DNA of 40,462 nt from Desulfotomaculaceae bacterium (GTDB lineage Bacteria > Bacillota > Desulfotomaculia > Desulfotomaculales > Pelotomaculaceae): NCBI GenBank assembly GCA_028702695.1, contig JAQVOH010000013.1, positions 1-40,462 on the forward strand, given 5' to 3'. Below the pieces are notes generated by a model. That model made no database searches. It worked only from the letters and a program-made list of their open reading frames with translations, and was not told where the DNA came from. Below, piece by piece: positions 5,752-28,490 of the stretch (the first letter of the stretch is position 1; every line of letters starts with the position of its first letter). The position numbers were made by a program, and so were the translations under genes.

Positions 5752-6768
5752 CTAAGACATTTTCCTGCCCACTACAACGGCTATCTTCTTTAATTCTGGC
5801 ATTAGTTCAATAAAATTATGGGGGGTCAGTGACTGGGCCCCGTCACTCAGAGCTTCAGCCGGGTTGGGGTGCATTTCTATCATTAGTCCGTCGGCGCCCG
5901 CGGCTATCGCAGCCATAGACATGGCAGGAACGTAGCGCCACTTACCGATGGCGTGACTGGGGTCAACAATTACCGGGAGGTGGGAAAGGTGCTTGACCAC
6001 CGGCACAGCGGTCAGGTCAAGCGTATTCCTCGTATAGCCCTCAAAGCTGCGGATCCCGCGCTCGCACAAAATCACATTGTAGTTGCCGCCGGCCATGATG
6101 TACTCAGCCGCCATCAACCATTCTTCGATGGTGGCTGAGGGTCCCCTCTTTAGCACAACGGGTTTGTCTACCTTGGCTACTTCCCGCAGCAGGGAAAAAT
6201 TCTGCATATTGCGGGCGCCTATCTGCAATATATCGGCATATTCTGCAACCATAGGGAGCGTCCTGGCATCCATTACCTCGGTCACGATCAAGAGACCGGT
6301 GGCCTCTCTGGCTTCAGCCAATAATTTGAGACCCTCTTCCTCCAACCCTTGGAAGGAATACGGTGAAGTCCTGGGCTTGAAAGCCCCGCCCCTCAGTATT
6401 GTCGCGCCTGAACTGCGGGCAATGCTTGCCGCCTCCATGAGTTGTTCCCTGCTTTCCACAGCACAGGGACCGGCTATGACGTGAATGGTGTCCCCGCCGA
6501 TTTCCAGACCACCGACCCTAATCACGGTCCCTTCCTCCTGAAAGATCCGGCTGGCCAACTTGTAGGGCTGAAGAATAGGGACGACCCTCTCTACGGAAGG
6601 CATCGCCCCCAGACCAAGGTCACCCAGGGGTGTTTTATCTCCAATCGCTCCGATAATGGTGCGCTCAACTCCACGGGAAAGGTGCGTCTGGAAGCCAATC
6701 CTTTCCAGGCGCAGCACAACTGCTTCAATCTCATCGTCCGTTGCCCTATGTCTCATAATCACAATCAT
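5752..6768 (-). CDS. aroF: 3-deoxy-7-phosphoheptulonate synthase (DAHP synthase, AroG/KdsA-type with N-terminal regulatory extension)
   Basis: [18 protein letters not shown]... then [55 protein letters not shown]. Confidence 0.95.
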
Positions 6769-6931
6769 ATATTCACCTCCTTACCATCCGTTAAGACAGA
6801 TCAAATCATTATTATTCCCATTTGCATAAAGAGCACTCATAAGGAAACTGATAGGTGTGTCTAAATCCGCGTTAATTACTTGACTGACCGGTATTCTCCC
6901 CTGACAGGTGAACTCATCATTATCACACCTT

Positions 6932-6967
6932 AAAAAAAGCAAAAACCGGCACTCAAACGAGTGTCGG
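6932..6967 (-). terminator. Leader terminator (candidate attenuator) upstream of aroF
   Basis: Minus strand CCGACACTC-GTTT-GAGTGCCGG-TTTTTGCTTTTTTT; one mismatch in a 9-bp stem; ~164 nt before aroF ATG. Confidence 0.8.
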
Positions 6968-6984
6968 CGGATTTTCACTTCCAG

Positions 6985-7041
6985 CTACCAAACTCTCATC
7001 TCAGCTAAGCTCAACTAATTTCTCAATTTCACTCTACTCTA
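6985..7041 (-). promoter_or_regulatory. Tandem (G/U)AG-triplet array, candidate TRAP/NAG-binding-protein site in aroF leader
   Basis: Minus strand TAG-AG-TAG-(AGTGAAATT)-GAG-AAAT-TAG-TT-GAG-CT-TAG-CT-GAG-AT-GAG-(AGTTTGG)-TAG; five consecutive triplets with exact 2-nt spacers. Confidence 0.7.
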
Positions 7042-7058
7042 AACTTAATGCCAATACT

Positions 7059-8913: not shown

Positions 8914-9651
8914 TTACTTACCCGAGCCCGGCTTCAACCCGGCAAGCTCTTTCAGTTGTCTCAATTCCAACTCACTCAGGTGGCGGTACTCCCCTGGTCT
9001 CATTATATCCAGGTTGAGGTTTCCAATCTTGCTCCGCCTCAACCGCAAAACCTGGAAATTGATATGTTCAAACATGCGTCTGATCTGGCGGTTGCGTCCT
9101 TCCCGGATGGTGACCTCCACCAGCGCGTTACCATCATGCTGGCCTGCCAGCCTGACTTTGGCGGGGGCGGTGAGGCCATCCTCCAGTTGGAGTCCCCCGG
9201 CCATCTGTTCCAACTGCTCCTTCGTAGGAATTCCGGCCACCCGCACCAGGTAGGTCTTCGGGACGAGGTGGCTGGGATGAGTCAGAGCGAAAGTAAGTTC
9301 TCCATCATTGGTCAACAAGAGCAGTCCTTCACTGTCGTAGTCCAGCCTTCCGACGGGATAAACCCTGGCGTTTATTCCTTTAAGTAGGTCGGTTACCTGT
9401 TTGCGGCCTTTTTCATCACTCATAGTTGTGATATACCCGCGGGGCTTGTACATCATTAGGTAATATTTTTGTGACGACAGGTGCAACCCCTCGCCACCTA
9501 CCTGAATTTTATCTTTGTCCGGGTCAACCTTGGTGCCCGGTTCGGTTACGACCCGGCCGTTCACTTTTACCATACCGGCAGCAATCATCGTCTCACAGTG
9601 CCGCCTGGAAGCAACCCCGGCGCGGGCCATCACCTTTTGTAGTCGTTCCAT
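8914..9651 (-). CDS. rluB: 23S rRNA pseudouridine synthase (RsuA/RluB family)
   Basis: S4-like N-terminus MERLQKVMARAGVASRRHCE, VYPVGRLDYDSEGLLLLTNDGEL, REGRNRQIRRMFE. Confidence 0.95.
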   Translation of the reverse strand: MERLQKVMARAGVASRRHCETMIAAGMVKVNGRVVTEPGTKVDPDKDKIQVGGEGLHLSSQKYYLMMYKPRGYITTMSDEKGRKQVTDLLKGINARVYPVGRLDYDSEGLLLLTNDGELTFALTHPSHLVPKTYLVRVAGIPTKEQLEQMAGGLQLEDGLTAPAKVRLAGQHDGNALVEVTIREGRNRQIRRMFEHINFQVLRLRRSKIGNLNLDIMRPGEYRHLSELELRQLKELAGLKPGSGK

Positions 9652-20018: not shown

Positions 20019-21387
20019 CCTCCTTGTCGACCAGGCTGTTTAGTATTTTGTGGACAGGCCACAGGGCTGTGTAAGTTGAAAAGAGGTAGACCATATCTGA
20101 GCGACTGTCCAGCACACTTCTAATGCCCCGCTCCATATCCTTGCAGACAACAATTCTATCCATAGGTATGCCGGCATATTTCAGGCGCAGGGCGATCTCT
20201 TCTCCCCTGCTACCGGAACAGATAAAGCCCGCCAAGTCGTTGTGGTCCTTGTTCAAAACCTCAAAATCAACATCCCACAGCCAGGAAATATCCCTTCCGT
20301 CCGCATCATTGTCGTTAATGGCAAAAAAGAGGCTTTTTGTTCCCTTCATACTGCGCAAATCTGCAAGGCCCTCGTTAAAACCGGTGGGGTTTTTGACCAG
20401 ACTCAAAAAGGCACTCCTGCCTTGATAGCTAAACCTCTCCAACCGGCCAAGCACCGGACGGTACTTGCGCAGGCTTTCCAGCATCAACGGGACGTCTACC
20501 CCGAAATGCAGGCCCACGGCAAAGGCCGCCATAGCATTATAAAGGTTATAAAGGCCCTGTACCTGCATGGTCAACTCGGCCTCCTGCTGGTCAAAATACA
20601 GGCGGCAGTTGGCAACACCGTCCCTTATGCGCGGCTCCCCAGCCTCAACCCTGGCTACTGGGCGGGCAAAATCGCAGCCGCTACAGCGGTACCGGCCTAG
20701 CTGCCCATAATGGTAAAATTCATAGCCCAGTGGTGAACCACAGAAAGGACAGTACTGTGCCTCCCTGGTCTGAGTGCTGGTACTTGCCGAGCGCTCGCTG
20801 CCGGACAATCCGTAAAACACCACAGGCAAACCGGCGTTTTTCTCAAACTGGGCAACCAGCGGGTCGTCTGCGTTTAGGATCAGGGTGGTATTTCTGTCAT
20901 TATTTTTTAGGGATTTGCGGATGACGCCGATGACTTTGTCAAGTTCCCAGTAACGATCCAACTGGTCACGGAAAAAATTGGTCAGAACCACGACCCCTGG
21001 AGTTAGTTCTTTTAAAACAATAGGCATGGTGGCTTCATCCACTTCCAGCACCGCATAGTCGCAGTCGATTTTGCCACTAAGCCCGGCTCTCTTGACAAAG
21101 CTGGTAGTAACCCCGGAGACCATGTTCGCCCCCTCCAGGTTGGCAATGTTCTGATAGCCGGCATCACGCAATATCCCGAAAATCATGTTGGAGGTGGTAG
21201 TTTTCCCATTGGTCCCGCTGACAACGATAATCTTCTTGCGGACCTGGGCGGCCAAATCACGCAGCGTGCCGGAATATATTTTGAGCGCAACCATACCGGG
21301 CAGTGAAGATCCTTTATGGCCTTGCCTCTTACTCAGCCAGGAGGCGACCCTCCCAGCCACAATGGCAGCGGACATCCTCAGGTTCAT
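19984..21387 (-). CDS. murT: Lipid II isoglutaminyl synthase, Mur ligase subunit MurT
   Basis: VVSGTNGKTTTSNM, zinc ribbon CPFCGSPLGYEFYHYGQLGRYRCSGC, C-terminal DUF1727. Confidence 0.95.
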   Translation of the reverse strand: MNLRMSAAIVAGRVASWLSKRQGHKGSSLPGMVALKIYSGTLRDLAAQVRKKIIVVSGTNGKTTTSNMIFGILRDAGYQNIANLEGANMVSGVTTSFVKRAGLSGKIDCDYAVLEVDEATMPIVLKELTPGVVVLTNFFRDQLDRYWELDKVIGVIRKSLKNNDRNTTLILNADDPLVAQFEKNAGLPVVFYGLSGSERSASTSTQTREAQYCPFCGSPLGYEFYHYGQLGRYRCSGCDFARPVARVEAGEPRIRDGVANCRLYFDQQEAELTMQVQGLYNLYNAMAAFAVGLHFGVDVPLMLESLRKYRPVLGRLERFSYQGRSAFLSLVKNPTGFNEGLADLRSMKGTKSLFFAINDNDADGRDISWLWDVDFEVLNKDHNDLAGFICSGSRGEEIALRLKYAGIPMDRIVVCKDMERGIRSVLDSRSDMVYLFSTYTALWPVHKILNSLVDKEGAYAAGGPFIS

Positions 21388-23948: not shown

Positions 23949-24347
23949 TTAAAAAAATCTCCCTCTCCTGAACAATAATTCCCTGATCAACAATATAGAA
24001 ATCAAATCCCTTAAAAATATTCTTCCAACAAAAGGTCCACCAAATCCTGGTCCGACAAACCCAGGTCCTCCAAAACCTGGCCCGAAAAATTGGCGAGGCA
24101 TAGGTTGAACATCATCTCTAATTCCGAAGTTTATTACTACGTTATTATATATTTGGTCAGCCATTTGTTCGACAACTGCTCTACTTGGGGACGGGCACAT
24201 ATGAGTATTTGTAGGAACATCGTACATCTCACACATGCTTCTTACCATCGGATGCACACAATGATAAATATCCGGATACATAGACTCCAAAGCCTCTCCA
24301 CAGTTTGCAGAAATATTCATTTCATTCGGATATACCGTATCTGGCAT
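23949..24347 (-). CDS. Hypothetical protein with C-terminal Gly/Phe/Pro-rich segment
   Basis: 132 aa; GGGTGAG SD region; ...CGEALESMYPDIYHCVHPMVRSMCE... then FFGPGFGGPGFVGPGFGGPFVG and Arg/Phe-rich tail. Confidence 0.65.
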   Translation of the reverse strand: MPDTVYPNEMNISANCGEALESMYPDIYHCVHPMVRSMCEMYDVPTNTHMCPSPSRAVVEQMADQIYNNVVINFGIRDDVQPMPRQFFGPGFGGPGFVGPGFGGPFVGRIFLRDLISILLIRELLFRRGRFF

Positions 24348-24488
24348 AATGGACTCACCCTTTCAATACCTTTATAACCATCTTATGCCAATATGTGATC
24401 TTTGTTCCTTCCATGGGACAGTTAAGTCTGCCGGGATGATGAGTTTTTTGCTGGCCTATTAGATTTTTTAGTGACAATATGACGGTCC

Positions 24489-24494
24489 TATGAT
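24489..24494 (+). promoter_or_regulatory. -10-like element for iorA leader
   Basis: TATGAT just upstream of the 5' stem-loop; -35 poorly conserved. Confidence 0.4.
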
Positions 24495-24507
24495 AACATT
24501 TAGCTAG

Positions 24508-24527
24508 GTGGAAGGGGAGCCTTCCAC
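24508..24527 (+). promoter_or_regulatory. 5' stem-loop in iorA leader
   Basis: GTGGAAGG-GGAG-CCTTCCAC, perfect 8-bp stem with 4-nt loop at the predicted RNA 5' end. Confidence 0.7.
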
Positions 24528-24530
24528 GCG

Positions 24531-24605
24531 TAGCAGAGCTAGAATCGACAATTACATAATTGAGGTGAGTTGAGCATGAGCTGAGCCAGGACGAGTGGAG
24601 ACGAG
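24531..24605 (+). promoter_or_regulatory. Tandem (G/U)AG-triplet array, candidate TRAP-type binding site in iorA leader
   Basis: TAG CA GAG C TAG (24531-24542) then GAG-GT-GAG-TT-GAG-CAT-GAG-CT-GAG-CCAGGAC-GAG-TG-GAG-AC-GAG (24562-24605): 11 (G/U)AG triplets in total. Confidence 0.8.
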
Positions 24606-24627
24606 GGTGTTTTTTATTTGTCCAAAG

Positions 24628-24659
24628 ACCGGGCCACGCTGCCCGGTTTTACTTATTTT
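24628..24659 (+). terminator. Leader terminator (candidate attenuator) upstream of iorA
   Basis: ACCGGGC-CACGCT-GCCCGGT-TTTACTTATTTT; 161 nt before iorA start. Confidence 0.75.
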
Positions 24660-24820
24660 AAGGTATTCGCTATACAGAGGAATCCTTCGGCAGGTGTCGA
24701 ACCATATAAAAGTTTGCGGTTTTCAAGATTACATCCATCACATACAGAACTTAATGTTTCAACTCATGCAGATTTTGCCAAACATAGCAACCCAAGACCA
24801 TCAACTTAGGGGGAACAATC

Positions 24821-26614
24821 TTGACACTAAAACTCCTCATGGGCAATGAAGCAATCGCCTACGGCGCGGTAGAGGCGGGAGTTCAGGTAGCTAGTGCCTA
24901 TCCGGGCACACCCTCCTCGGAAATTCTGTCCACCCTGGCTGGCTTGGCCCTGGAAAAAGGTTTTTACGCCGAGTGGTCGGTTAACGAAAAAGTAGCCCTG
25001 GAAGTCGCTGCCGGCGCCGCCTACGCCGGAGCGCGGGCGCTGGCGGCCATGAAACAAGTCGGGCTGAACGTGGCCTCCGACCCGCTGATGAGCCTGGCCT
25101 ATATCGGTGTTAAAGGTGGACTGGTCTTGGTGGTGGCAGATGATCCCGGGCCACACAGCTCTCAGACCGAACAGGACACTCGCCTGTTTGCCCGGTTTGC
25201 CAAGCTGCCGGTCCTCGACCCGGCTACACCACGTGAAGCCAAAGAAATGACTAGGTACGCCTTTGAACTCTCAGAAAAACTGCTACTGCCGGTAATCCTG
25301 AGGCCAACCACACGGACCTGCCACGCCTGCCAGGACGTGGAGATACAGGATACCACCGCAGTGCCCCAGCCTGTTTCCGGTTTTCAAAGAAGTCCCAACT
25401 GGGTGATCTTTCCGAACCTATCCGCCCGTAAACACGTCTGGCTCAACGGTCAGCAGGAAGTCGCGCGGGAGAGCTTCGAGAACTCCCCTTTCAACCAGTT
25501 AACCATTAATGAACAATCTGACGTGGGGATTATTGCCTGCGGCGTTAGCTATAACTACGTGATGGAGGCGCTGCAACTGACAGGGCTGGAAGCTTCCGTC
25601 CTAAAAATCGGCACTCCCTATCCCCTACCCGCCGGTCCGGTCCTGCAGCTTTTACAGCATGCTAAAAAAATACTGGTAGTCGAAGAACAGGAACCGGTAG
25701 TGGAAGACCAGGTCATCGCCCTGGCCTGGAAAACTCGTTCTACCGCTCAGATTTCCGGCAAATACGACCGCCTGGTAGCACGTGAAGGCGAACTCAACGT
25801 CAATAAAGTCAGAGCCATCCTGGAAAATTTCTGTGGCCGGCAACCGCATTCTATTGAAGCGGCTGTCCCGCCGGAACTGCCGCTGCGCACACCCGTCCTC
25901 TGCGCGGGCTGTTCGCACCGGGCCTCCTTCTATATCCTTAAGGAAGCAGCGCGTGGTAAAGACACGTTATTTGCCGGTGATATAGGTTGCTACACTTTAG
26001 GCGCCATGCCTCCTTTGAACACCACAGACACCTGCCTGTGCATGGGCGCTAGCGTCAGTATTGCGGCAGGCTTGAGCCGCGTGGAACCGCACCGCCAACA
26101 GGTGGCCTTCCTGGGGGACTCTACTTTCTTCCACTCCGGGATACCTGGCCTGATCAACGCGGTACACAACGGCGCTAACATAACCCTGGTCATTCTGGAC
26201 AACAGTACCACGGCCATGACCGGACACCAGCCCCACCCCGGACTTAACCGCACTGCAATGGGTCCAACTGACCAGTCGATCAACATAGCGAGGATGGTTG
26301 AGGCCTGTGGTGTGGAGTTTGTGCGGGTGGCTGATCCCTTTGATCTAAAGGCAGCCTTGCAGGTGGCTAAAGACGCCCTAGCTTTTGCTGGGCCAGCAGT
26401 AGTAATTATGCAGCGTGAGTGTGTTGCACAGATAAATAAAGGTCGTCACCGCAGGATTAACCCTGATCTCTGCACTGAATGCGGAGCCTGCATTGATGAA
26501 CTGGGTTGCCCAGCCATCGGTAAACCGGCAGGTCAGCCGGAAATTCTGGAGAACTGCTTTGGTTGCGGCTTCTGCAACCAGGTCTGCCCCGTTGGGGCCA
26601 TCGAGGAGGTTTAG
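24821..26614 (+). CDS. iorA: Indolepyruvate:ferredoxin oxidoreductase, alpha subunit
   Basis: 597 aa; LLMGNEAIAYGAVEAGVQVASAYPGTPSSEI, AGCSHRASFY, GDIGCYTLG, C-terminal 2x[4Fe-4S] CTECGACIDELGCPA...CFGCGFCNQVCP. TTG start behind AGGGGG. Confidence 0.96.
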   Translation: MTLKLLMGNEAIAYGAVEAGVQVASAYPGTPSSEILSTLAGLALEKGFYAEWSVNEKVALEVAAGAAYAGARALAAMKQVGLNVASDPLMSLAYIGVKGGLVLVVADDPGPHSSQTEQDTRLFARFAKLPVLDPATPREAKEMTRYAFELSEKLLLPVILRPTTRTCHACQDVEIQDTTAVPQPVSGFQRSPNWVIFPNLSARKHVWLNGQQEVARESFENSPFNQLTINEQSDVGIIACGVSYNYVMEALQLTGLEASVLKIGTPYPLPAGPVLQLLQHAKKILVVEEQEPVVEDQVIALAWKTRSTAQISGKYDRLVAREGELNVNKVRAILENFCGRQPHSIEAAVPPELPLRTPVLCAGCSHRASFYILKEAARGKDTLFAGDIGCYTLGAMPPLNTTDTCLCMGASVSIAAGLSRVEPHRQQVAFLGDSTFFHSGIPGLINAVHNGANITLVILDNSTTAMTGHQPHPGLNRTAMGPTDQSINIARMVEACGVEFVRVADPFDLKAALQVAKDALAFAGPAVVIMQRECVAQINKGRHRRINPDLCTECGACIDELGCPAIGKPAGQPEILENCFGCGFCNQVCPVGAIEEV

Positions 26615-26616
26615 TT

Positions 26617-27207
26617 ATGAAGCTCGATATTGTTATCAGCGGCGTCGGCGGTCAGGGTTCCGTGCTGGCCTCCCGGGTGCTGGCCAGCGCAGGCATGGGC
26701 CTTGGACTGGACGTGCGCACCTCTGAAGTAATCGGCATGGCCCAGCGGGAAGGCTCAGTCACCAGCCAGGTACGGCTAGGCGAAAAGCTCTACGGAGCCA
26801 CCATCCCAGATCACGAGGCCGACATCTTGCTCGGCTTTGAACTGGCAGAAACCGTTAGAGCTGTGCCTAAGCTAAAACCGGGCGGCGCCATTATCGCCAG
26901 TGCATCTGCTATTGTACCGGTTTCGGTGCAGTTAGGCATATCCAGCTACGACCAGAAAGCCATGCAGCAGTACCTACGTGAACAACCCGGTCGGGTAGTT
27001 TTGCTTGACCTGGAGGAACTGGCTAAAAAAGCCGGTCACCCTAAAACCGGCAACGTCATTATCCTGGGAGCCCTGTCCACCCTGCCAGGCCTTCCTTTTG
27101 AACCAGAACAACTGCTGCAGGCCGTGCTGAGCTATATCCCCGAAAAGCTTCAGAATACCAACAAGCGCGCCTTTGAAGTCGGGCGCCAGTCCATGGAGGT
27201 GGCATAA
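26617..27207 (+). CDS. iorB: Indolepyruvate:ferredoxin oxidoreductase, beta subunit
   Basis: ORF 26563..27207; start MKLDIVISGVGGQGSVLASRVLA at 26617. Confidence 0.95.
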   Translation: MKLDIVISGVGGQGSVLASRVLASAGMGLGLDVRTSEVIGMAQREGSVTSQVRLGEKLYGATIPDHEADILLGFELAETVRAVPKLKPGGAIIASASAIVPVSVQLGISSYDQKAMQQYLREQPGRVVLLDLEELAKKAGHPKTGNVIILGALSTLPGLPFEPEQLLQAVLSYIPEKLQNTNKRAFEVGRQSMEVA

Positions 27208-28490
27208 TGTCAGTTGTACAAATAAAACCCAAGAAGCGCTTCGACCTGGAGGAAATCATTAGCGGCCAGGAGGCCCAGCTGCGGGAGTTCATGCCACGTA
27301 TCTACAAAAATTCACCTTTTTACCGCAAAAAATTAGATGAGGCCGGAATAAACCCGCTGGGCGTAAAAAGCATAGCCGATCTGGCCCGGTTGCCCTTCAC
27401 CTCCAAGGAAGAGCTGCGCCAGGGCTACCCGCTGGGGCTGCAAGCTGTACCAGATGAAAAGGTGGTCCGTATCCACTCCTCATCAGGCACCACCGGCAAG
27501 CCGATCATCGTACCTTACACTGCCAATGACGTAGCAACCTGGGCTGAGATGATGGCCCGCTGCATGGCCACCGCCGGAGTAACCAACCGGGACCGTGTCC
27601 AGGTCACACCCGGCTACGGGTTGTGGACAGCAGGGATCGGCTTCCAGGCCGGGGTGGAACGACTGGGCGCGATGGCCATTCCCATGGGGCCAGGTAACAC
27701 GGAAAAACAGATCGAGTTTATGGTCGATTTGCAAAGCACTGTACTAACCGCAACTTCCTCTTACGCCCTGCTCCTGGCAGAAGAAATCAACAGGCGGGGA
27801 CTTAAGAATAAGATTAAGCTACGCCTCGGTATCATAGGTTCGGAGCGCTGGGGTGACAAAATGCGCGCCAGGATCGAAGCACTTTTAGGCATCGATTCGT
27901 TTGATATCTACGGCCTTACCGAAATTTACGGGCCCAGCATCTCCATCGACTGCCCCGAACACGCAGGTCTGCACTACTGGAGCGATCACCTGCTCTTTGA
28001 AATTGTCGACCCGGTCACCGGAACGCAGCTTGCCCCTGGTGAGGAGGGTGAGCTGGTAGTTACCACCCTGACCAAGGAGGGTATGCCCCTCTTGCGCTAC
28101 CGTACCCACGACATTACCCGCCTTCTGACCGAGCAGTGCGCCTGCGGCAGCCCCTACCCAATGCACGCCCGGGTCCTCGGCCGCACCGACGATATGGTTA
28201 AAATCAAAGGTGTCAACATCTACCCCGGCCAGATTGATCACGTGCTGAAGATCACCGAAGGAGCCGGCAGCGAGTACCAGATCATAGTGAAACGCTCTGA
28301 TGGCAAGGACTCCATCCTGATCAAGGCTGAAGCGCTGGAGGGCCAACCACTTGACAAGGTGGCCGGCGAGTTAAAGAAAAATATAAAAACCCGCATCGGG
28401 ATCCTCACAGATGTGGAAGCCGTACCGCACGGCTCCCTGCCGCGAAGCGAAAAGAAGAGCAAAAGGGTCTATGACTACAGGGAGTGCTGA
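27207..28490 (+). CDS. paaK: Phenylacetate--CoA ligase (aryl-CoA ligase)
   Basis: IHSSSGTTGKPIIVPYT, GLTEIYGPSISIDCPEHAGLHYWSDH, GRTDDMVKIKGVNIYPGQID; start overlaps iorB stop (TAATG). Confidence 0.95.
   Translation: MSVVQIKPKKRFDLEEIISGQEAQLREFMPRIYKNSPFYRKKLDEAGINPLGVKSIADLARLPFTSKEELRQGYPLGLQAVPDEKVVRIHSSSGTTGKPIIVPYTANDVATWAEMMARCMATAGVTNRDRVQVTPGYGLWTAGIGFQAGVERLGAMAIPMGPGNTEKQIEFMVDLQSTVLTATSSYALLLAEEINRRGLKNKIKLRLGIIGSERWGDKMRARIEALLGIDSFDIYGLTEIYGPSISIDCPEHAGLHYWSDHLLFEIVDPVTGTQLAPGEEGELVVTTLTKEGMPLLRYRTHDITRLLTEQCACGSPYPMHARVLGRTDDMVKIKGVNIYPGQIDHVLKITEGAGSEYQIIVKRSDGKDSILIKAEALEGQPLDKVAGELKKNIKTRIGILTDVEAVPHGSLPRSEKKSKRVYDYREC

Follow-up and report, generated by a model that had tools for sequence, protein, structure and literature searches.

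What reads the regularly spaced GAG triplets that lie ahead of iorAB-paaK—genes for an indolepyruvate:ferredoxin oxidoreductase (IOR) and an aryl-CoA ligase—in a Desulfotomaculaceae bacterium, and to what effect? For the tryptophan-responsive regulator TRAP, encoded by mtrB, the papers found name as targets the trp operon together with trpG, trpP and ycbK (PMC11255114). At the trp leader, binding of tryptophan-loaded TRAP stops transcription, in the classical view because TRAP prevents an antiterminator from forming (PMC3913778). The original prediction for this locus, made from the DNA letters, proposed a tryptophan-responsive TRAP attenuator. We followed up that reading in the window (the whole stretch of 40,462 nt that was analysed), in the remainder of its genome and in related genomes, and found it supported by mtrB, by recurring arrays with terminators and by the co-occurrence of array and gene.

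Materials and Methods

Triplet chains were scored by counting KAG as 1 and CAG and AAG as 0.2, with gaps of 2–3 nt free and others penalised. The window’s genome was scanned for an exact five-triplet pattern, with the reversed pattern as control. Close iorA orthologues were defined by an identity of at least 51%. Of the 33 leaders examined, three belonged to named genomes that were not part of the order sample. L135, L142 and L133 belong to other mtrB-positive Clostridia. Co-occurrence was assessed in 72 named genomes with iorA relatives, in which a strong array was one scoring at least 5 in the operon region.

Results

Anatomy of the leader before iorA

Inspection of the window’s sequence found every predicted leader feature in its expected place (Table 1), with some refinement. 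TATGAT (24489), formerly taken as the −10 element, gave way to a better promoter, GTGACA-17 nt-TAACAT, which places the expected RNA start near 24506, immediately next to the 5′ stem-loop. The transcript would begin with that stem-loop and continue through the GAG array, a U-rich stretch (GGTGTTTTTTATTTG, immediately 3′ of the array) and the terminator. The perfect 8-bp stem-loop is present as predicted and is retained 32–35 nt ahead of the array in G012, G011, G020 and G002 (trpP leader); stem changes between relatives preserve pairing, as in GTGGAAGG/CCTTCCAC versus GTGAAAGG/CCTTTCAC. The terminator hairpin with its U-rich tail, once placed at 24628–24659, was also found, its stem occupying 24625–24650 and being followed by ACTTATTTTA.

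The prediction’s 11 (G/U)AG triplets are all there, but the total is partly coincidence: the main array holds eight GAG triplets (starting at 24562, 24567, 24572, 24578, 24583, 24593, 24598 and 24603), its one break filled by a CAG at 24587. This falls within the class definition of at least 7–11 (G/U)AG repeats spaced by 2–3 nt. The interruption and the shortfall from 11 triplets count against a TRAP attenuator; stable TRAP binding requires only seven or more repeats (PMC4027176).

Just 5′ of the array, the box GACAATTnCATA (window 24547–24558) occurs also in L055, L096, L097 and L213–L216, and TRAP binding does not explain it.

Table 1. Features of the two leaders and adjoining genes in the window.
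Feature	Position	Strand	Remarks
Promoter GTGACA-17-TAACAT, TG before −10	24471..24499	+	Similar element at similar distance in most relatives’ leaders
5′ stem-loop GTGGAAGG-ggag-CCTTCCAC, 8 bp	24508..24527	+	5′ end of predicted transcript
Three upstream triplets, TAG-GAG-TAG	24531..24542	+	19 nt apart from main array
Conserved box GACAATTACATA, just 5′ of array	24547..24558	+	Similar in 8 leaders of family
TRAP-type array: GAG ×5, CAG, GAG ×3	24562..24605	+	Gaps 2,2,3,2,1,3,2,2
Competing hairpin, 3′ array part and U-rich linker	24589..24623	+	Adjoins terminator stem without overlap
Intrinsic terminator, 10-pair stem, 6-nt loop, T-rich tail	24625..24660	+	Precedes first gene
Scar of trpP-ecfA-ecfA'-ecfT deletion	24664..24673	+	Alignment to G012
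iorA, indolepyruvate ferredoxin oxidoreductase alpha	24821..26614	+	TIGR03336, 807.5 bits (cut-off 650.9)
iorB	26563..27207	+	TIGR03334, 187.9 bits, just below cut-off (205.8)
PaaK-type aryl-CoA ligase	27207..28490	+	TIGR02155, 430.5 bits, below cut-off (646.3)
Second TRAP-type array	6995..7046	−	Aligns with G012 trpE leader
Terminator of second leader (approximate bounds)	6930..6968	−	
Frameshifted remnant of trpE 5′ end	6841..6919	−	SSPVRGEYRSVK*...INADLDTPIS versus G012 EYLSLSKRYDLIPVSQVINADLDTPIS
aroF (DAHP synthase)	5752..6768	−	Last gene of trp operon region in G012

The array departs from chance and from other leader types

Upstream of iorA the chain score was 7.2. In 300 dinucleotide shuffles of that region the score never exceeded 4.0, and 60 shuffles covering both strands of the entire window peaked at 6.0. 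The five-triplet scan of the window’s genome returned three matches: the ior leader, window 6995–7017 (minus) and G000:C97:20576. The last of these (20576–20598, minus; L207), at a KaiC-like gene junction, was read as a probable chance run because the control, the reversed pattern, likewise matched once.

A separate observation is that an SD-like GAGGTGA, followed by ATG-AGC-TGA, forms a two-codon ORF at the start of the array (24562–24584) and is kept in G012 and G001–G004. This conserved mini-ORF could suggest a ribosome-mediated leader peptide, but it lacks a Trp codon. An Rfam search gave no family at the gathering threshold, only chance-level snoRNA models with E up to 5, and a covariance-model search of the leader gave no T-box match. 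Taken with the shuffles, the conservation across families and the tie to mtrB described below, these results leave it extremely improbable that the locus is a chance GAG run beside an ordinary terminator, a T-box or a leader-peptide system.

The genome encodes TRAP, and strong arrays keep company with mtrB

The prediction looked to an mtrB elsewhere in the genome, and one lies at G000:C144:6989–7189 (PF02081, E 5.6e-39, 133.7 bits, cut-off 21.3). Its product matches solved structures of B. subtilis-type TRAP (E about 1e-28), and the alignment retains the core FHHSEK...TEHTSAIKIRG and with it the RNA-contact residues; in TRAP, Lys37, Lys56 and Arg58 contact RNA. We found mtrB in 24/25 genomes of the family and 105/113 of the order.

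Among the named genomes sampled, all 11 strong arrays fell in mtrB-positive genomes and none in the 52 mtrB-negative ones (Fisher p = 5.6e-8, relatedness not corrected). Against this, no array was seen in some mtrB-positive genomes that carry an ior gene; in several, the contig stops short upstream. A weak array in the mtrB-negative genome of L153 was rejected as a false positive, being irregularly spaced and 3.6 kb upstream of iorA.

Arrays recur at orthologous ior operons

Close iorA orthologues occur in 39/113 genomes of the order, the window’s own included. Triplet periodicity had been expected to persist in the leaders of iorA orthologues, and it does: among the order's 38 other orthologous ior operons, 29 are preceded by a comparable (G/U)AG array and a terminator, across several families and with spacing mostly of 2–3 nt. 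In nine genomes of the order an orthologue occurs without a strong array in the stretch that was read; several of these stretches run out at the contig edge or contain a partial upstream operon. The iorA paralogues (41–48% identity) carry no array. A terminator follows the array in 33/33 leaders examined.

The array directly precedes iorA in G017, G019, G020, G023, G063, G066, G079 and G085, and stands about 3 kb or more upstream in G012, G010, G011 and, by position, most others. In G012 the leader heads an operon ordered trpP (PF17099)-ecfA-ecfA'-ecfT (PF02361)-iorA-iorB-paaK. Members of genus g2 (G001–G004; L058–L061, L213–L216) have two leaders in one operon: trpP is preceded by a leader of 10–16 triplets, iorA by a weaker array and its terminator. 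Leaders with array and terminator also precede trpE in G063 (11 triplets), G011, G079, G012 and G099.

Elsewhere, in L135 (about 9420–9465), L142 (about 9450) and L133 (about 3860), an array lies over the region in which paaK or trpP starts. These placements suggest that TRAP may control translation there, and they resemble the sites at which TRAP acts on translation in B. subtilis.

A deletion brought the ior leader next to iorA

Comparison with the same-genus relative G012 explains why the leader adjoins iorA here. Window positions 24290–24663 align to G012:C2:162500–162884 and 24674–24734 to 166394–166454, which leaves the window’s genome short of about 3.5 kb, the stretch that carries trpP-ecfAA'T. 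The leader thus originally stood first in the ancestral operon, trpP-ecfAA'T-iorAB-paaK, which would have served tryptophan uptake and, probably, arylacetate salvage.

A real deletion, with trpP-ecf still in place in G012, invites the reading that the ior leader is a non-functional relic. That is very unlikely: array and terminator are almost identical to those of G012 (two substitutions in about 45 nt of array, none in a GAG triplet), whereas the wider upstream stretch is only about 82% identical and thus less conserved. The genes concerned are under purifying selection relative to G012, with dN/dS of about 0.10 for iorA, 0.06 for paaK and 0.10 for mtrB (range 0.06–0.19 across iorA, iorB, paaK, aroF and mtrB). 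Moreover, the order array-terminator-iorA without an intervening trpP is also found in the first seven genomes listed above as having the array directly before iorA.

A second leader outlived the trp operon

The second array in the window has a comparable history. G012 carries trpE, then six ORFs whose sizes and order fit a trp operon (one of them confirmed as trpA), then aroF; by alignment about 6.8 kb of this region is missing from the window’s genome, and with the trp genes deleted the old trp leader now stands directly before aroF. On sequence grounds we take the second array to be the leader of the former trp operon, kept after the operon was lost. Pattern and family searches found no trpE, trpA or trpP anywhere in the window’s genome. 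The absence of trp genes and trpP at these two loci is not an assembly gap, since both scars fall within a contig that shares synteny with G012 to either side of them.

Folding and the direction of control

Folding gave the array and linker of the ior leader a higher stability than permuted arrays (z −4.0; nascent RNA z −2.2) and predicted a hairpin at 24589–24623 that TRAP, once bound to the array, would block. The earlier call for alternative folds was borne out for the terminator, which folds whether the array is free or held unpaired; an antiterminator overlapping it was not clearly shown, in that the predicted folds of the ior leader included none that clearly excludes the terminator. Across the 33 leaders, pairing of the array with the terminator arm and loop was at the level of permuted arrays (6.2 versus 6.0 expected pairs, p = 0.36), energy tests over all leaders were weakly positive (p about 0.02), and RNAalifold on eight family leaders mainly supported the terminator.

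TRAP can also terminate transcription in vivo without an attenuator hairpin if an A+U-rich stretch lies downstream of its site (PMC3913778), and a stretch of that kind follows the ior array. In the mechanism we propose, the GAG array would wrap around tryptophan-loaded TRAP. Plentiful tryptophan would put TRAP on the nascent RNA and stop transcription ahead of iorA; when tryptophan is scarce, TRAP would be released and iorAB-paaK would be transcribed. We infer this OFF direction from analogy, the operon partners and the direct-termination mode, rather than from a demonstrated antiterminator.

The logic might be reversed, with bound TRAP promoting read-through and IorAB-PaaK degrading excess tryptophan. 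IOR can serve amino-acid fermentation (PMC13285125), and the lack of a strict antiterminator in the ior leader would suit such a scheme. We nevertheless regard it as unlikely: since the terminator still forms with the array held unpaired, TRAP binding would not remove it, and co-transcription with trpP, the presence of this type of leader at trpE and the repression known to result from TRAP binding all favour OFF with tryptophan. The ior leader (24471–24660) is, with high probability, a TRAP-dependent attenuator at which tryptophan-rich conditions would stop transcription before iorA.

The regulated genes and a possible salvage route

The earlier gene calls hold, iorA exceeding its curated cut-off and iorB and the PaaK-type ligase being clear homologues below theirs. 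Homology in iorB begins at about residue 20, so its true start probably lies inside the ORF; the ligase does not reach the cut-off for phenylacetate-CoA ligase PaaK (TIGR02155).

For an IOR accompanied by an AMP-forming aryl-CoA ligase, a biosynthetic role has been put forward (PMC13285125). IorAB-PaaK probably runs in that direction as arylacetate salvage, rebuilding aromatic amino acids; repression by tryptophan and a shared operon with a tryptophan transporter gene would fit. With trpE, trpA and trpP gone, indoleacetate salvage could be a tryptophan route in the window’s genome. More tentatively, and at slightly under an even chance, TRAP may have been kept for aromatic salvage: IorAB-PaaK (indoleacetate to indolepyruvate to tryptophan) would be the remaining tryptophan route with TRAP as its feedback switch, and the orphaned trp leader would control aroF.

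Discussion

Among the closest known counterparts is the leader of B. subtilis trpEDCFBA, which shares a (G/U)AG array with 2–3-nt spacers, a terminator before the first gene and mtrB (PMC3913778, PMC4027176). The ior leader differs from it in its target, iorAB-paaK (ancestrally trpP-ecf-ior), in an array of eight GAG triplets and one CAG with a break, and in a 5′ stem-loop placed 34 nt ahead of the array with no clear overlapping antiterminator. A 5′ stem-loop as such is common to the two leaders. B. subtilis also places a tryptophan transporter gene, trpP (yhaG), under TRAP (PMC11255114). The B. subtilis trpP, trpG and ycbK sites are translational and lie across the ribosome-binding site, whereas the ior array and terminator lie upstream. 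On the metabolic side, the same pair of IOR and aryl-CoA ligase has a proposed biosynthetic role, arylacetate salvage, in methanogens and Bacteroides; no TRAP control is described there, unlike that predicted here (PMC13285125).

The claim that no TRAP attenuator had been described for an indolepyruvate:ferredoxin oxidoreductase and aryl-CoA ligase stood up to a literature search, which found no report joining TRAP with indolepyruvate, most subscription papers lying outside the search. The predicted mechanism is a known one; the regulated operon would be new.

In this order of anaerobes, nearly all of whose sampled genomes have TRAP, the TRAP regulon would thereby come to include IOR and an aryl-CoA ligase in addition to the synthesis and transport of tryptophan. 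How the operon is regulated also bears on the direction in which IOR runs in bacteria: if tryptophan represses it, biosynthesis would be favoured, and if tryptophan induces it, breakdown. Both leaders kept in the window, for their part, illustrate how regulatory RNAs can outlive the genes they governed and pass to the next gene in line.
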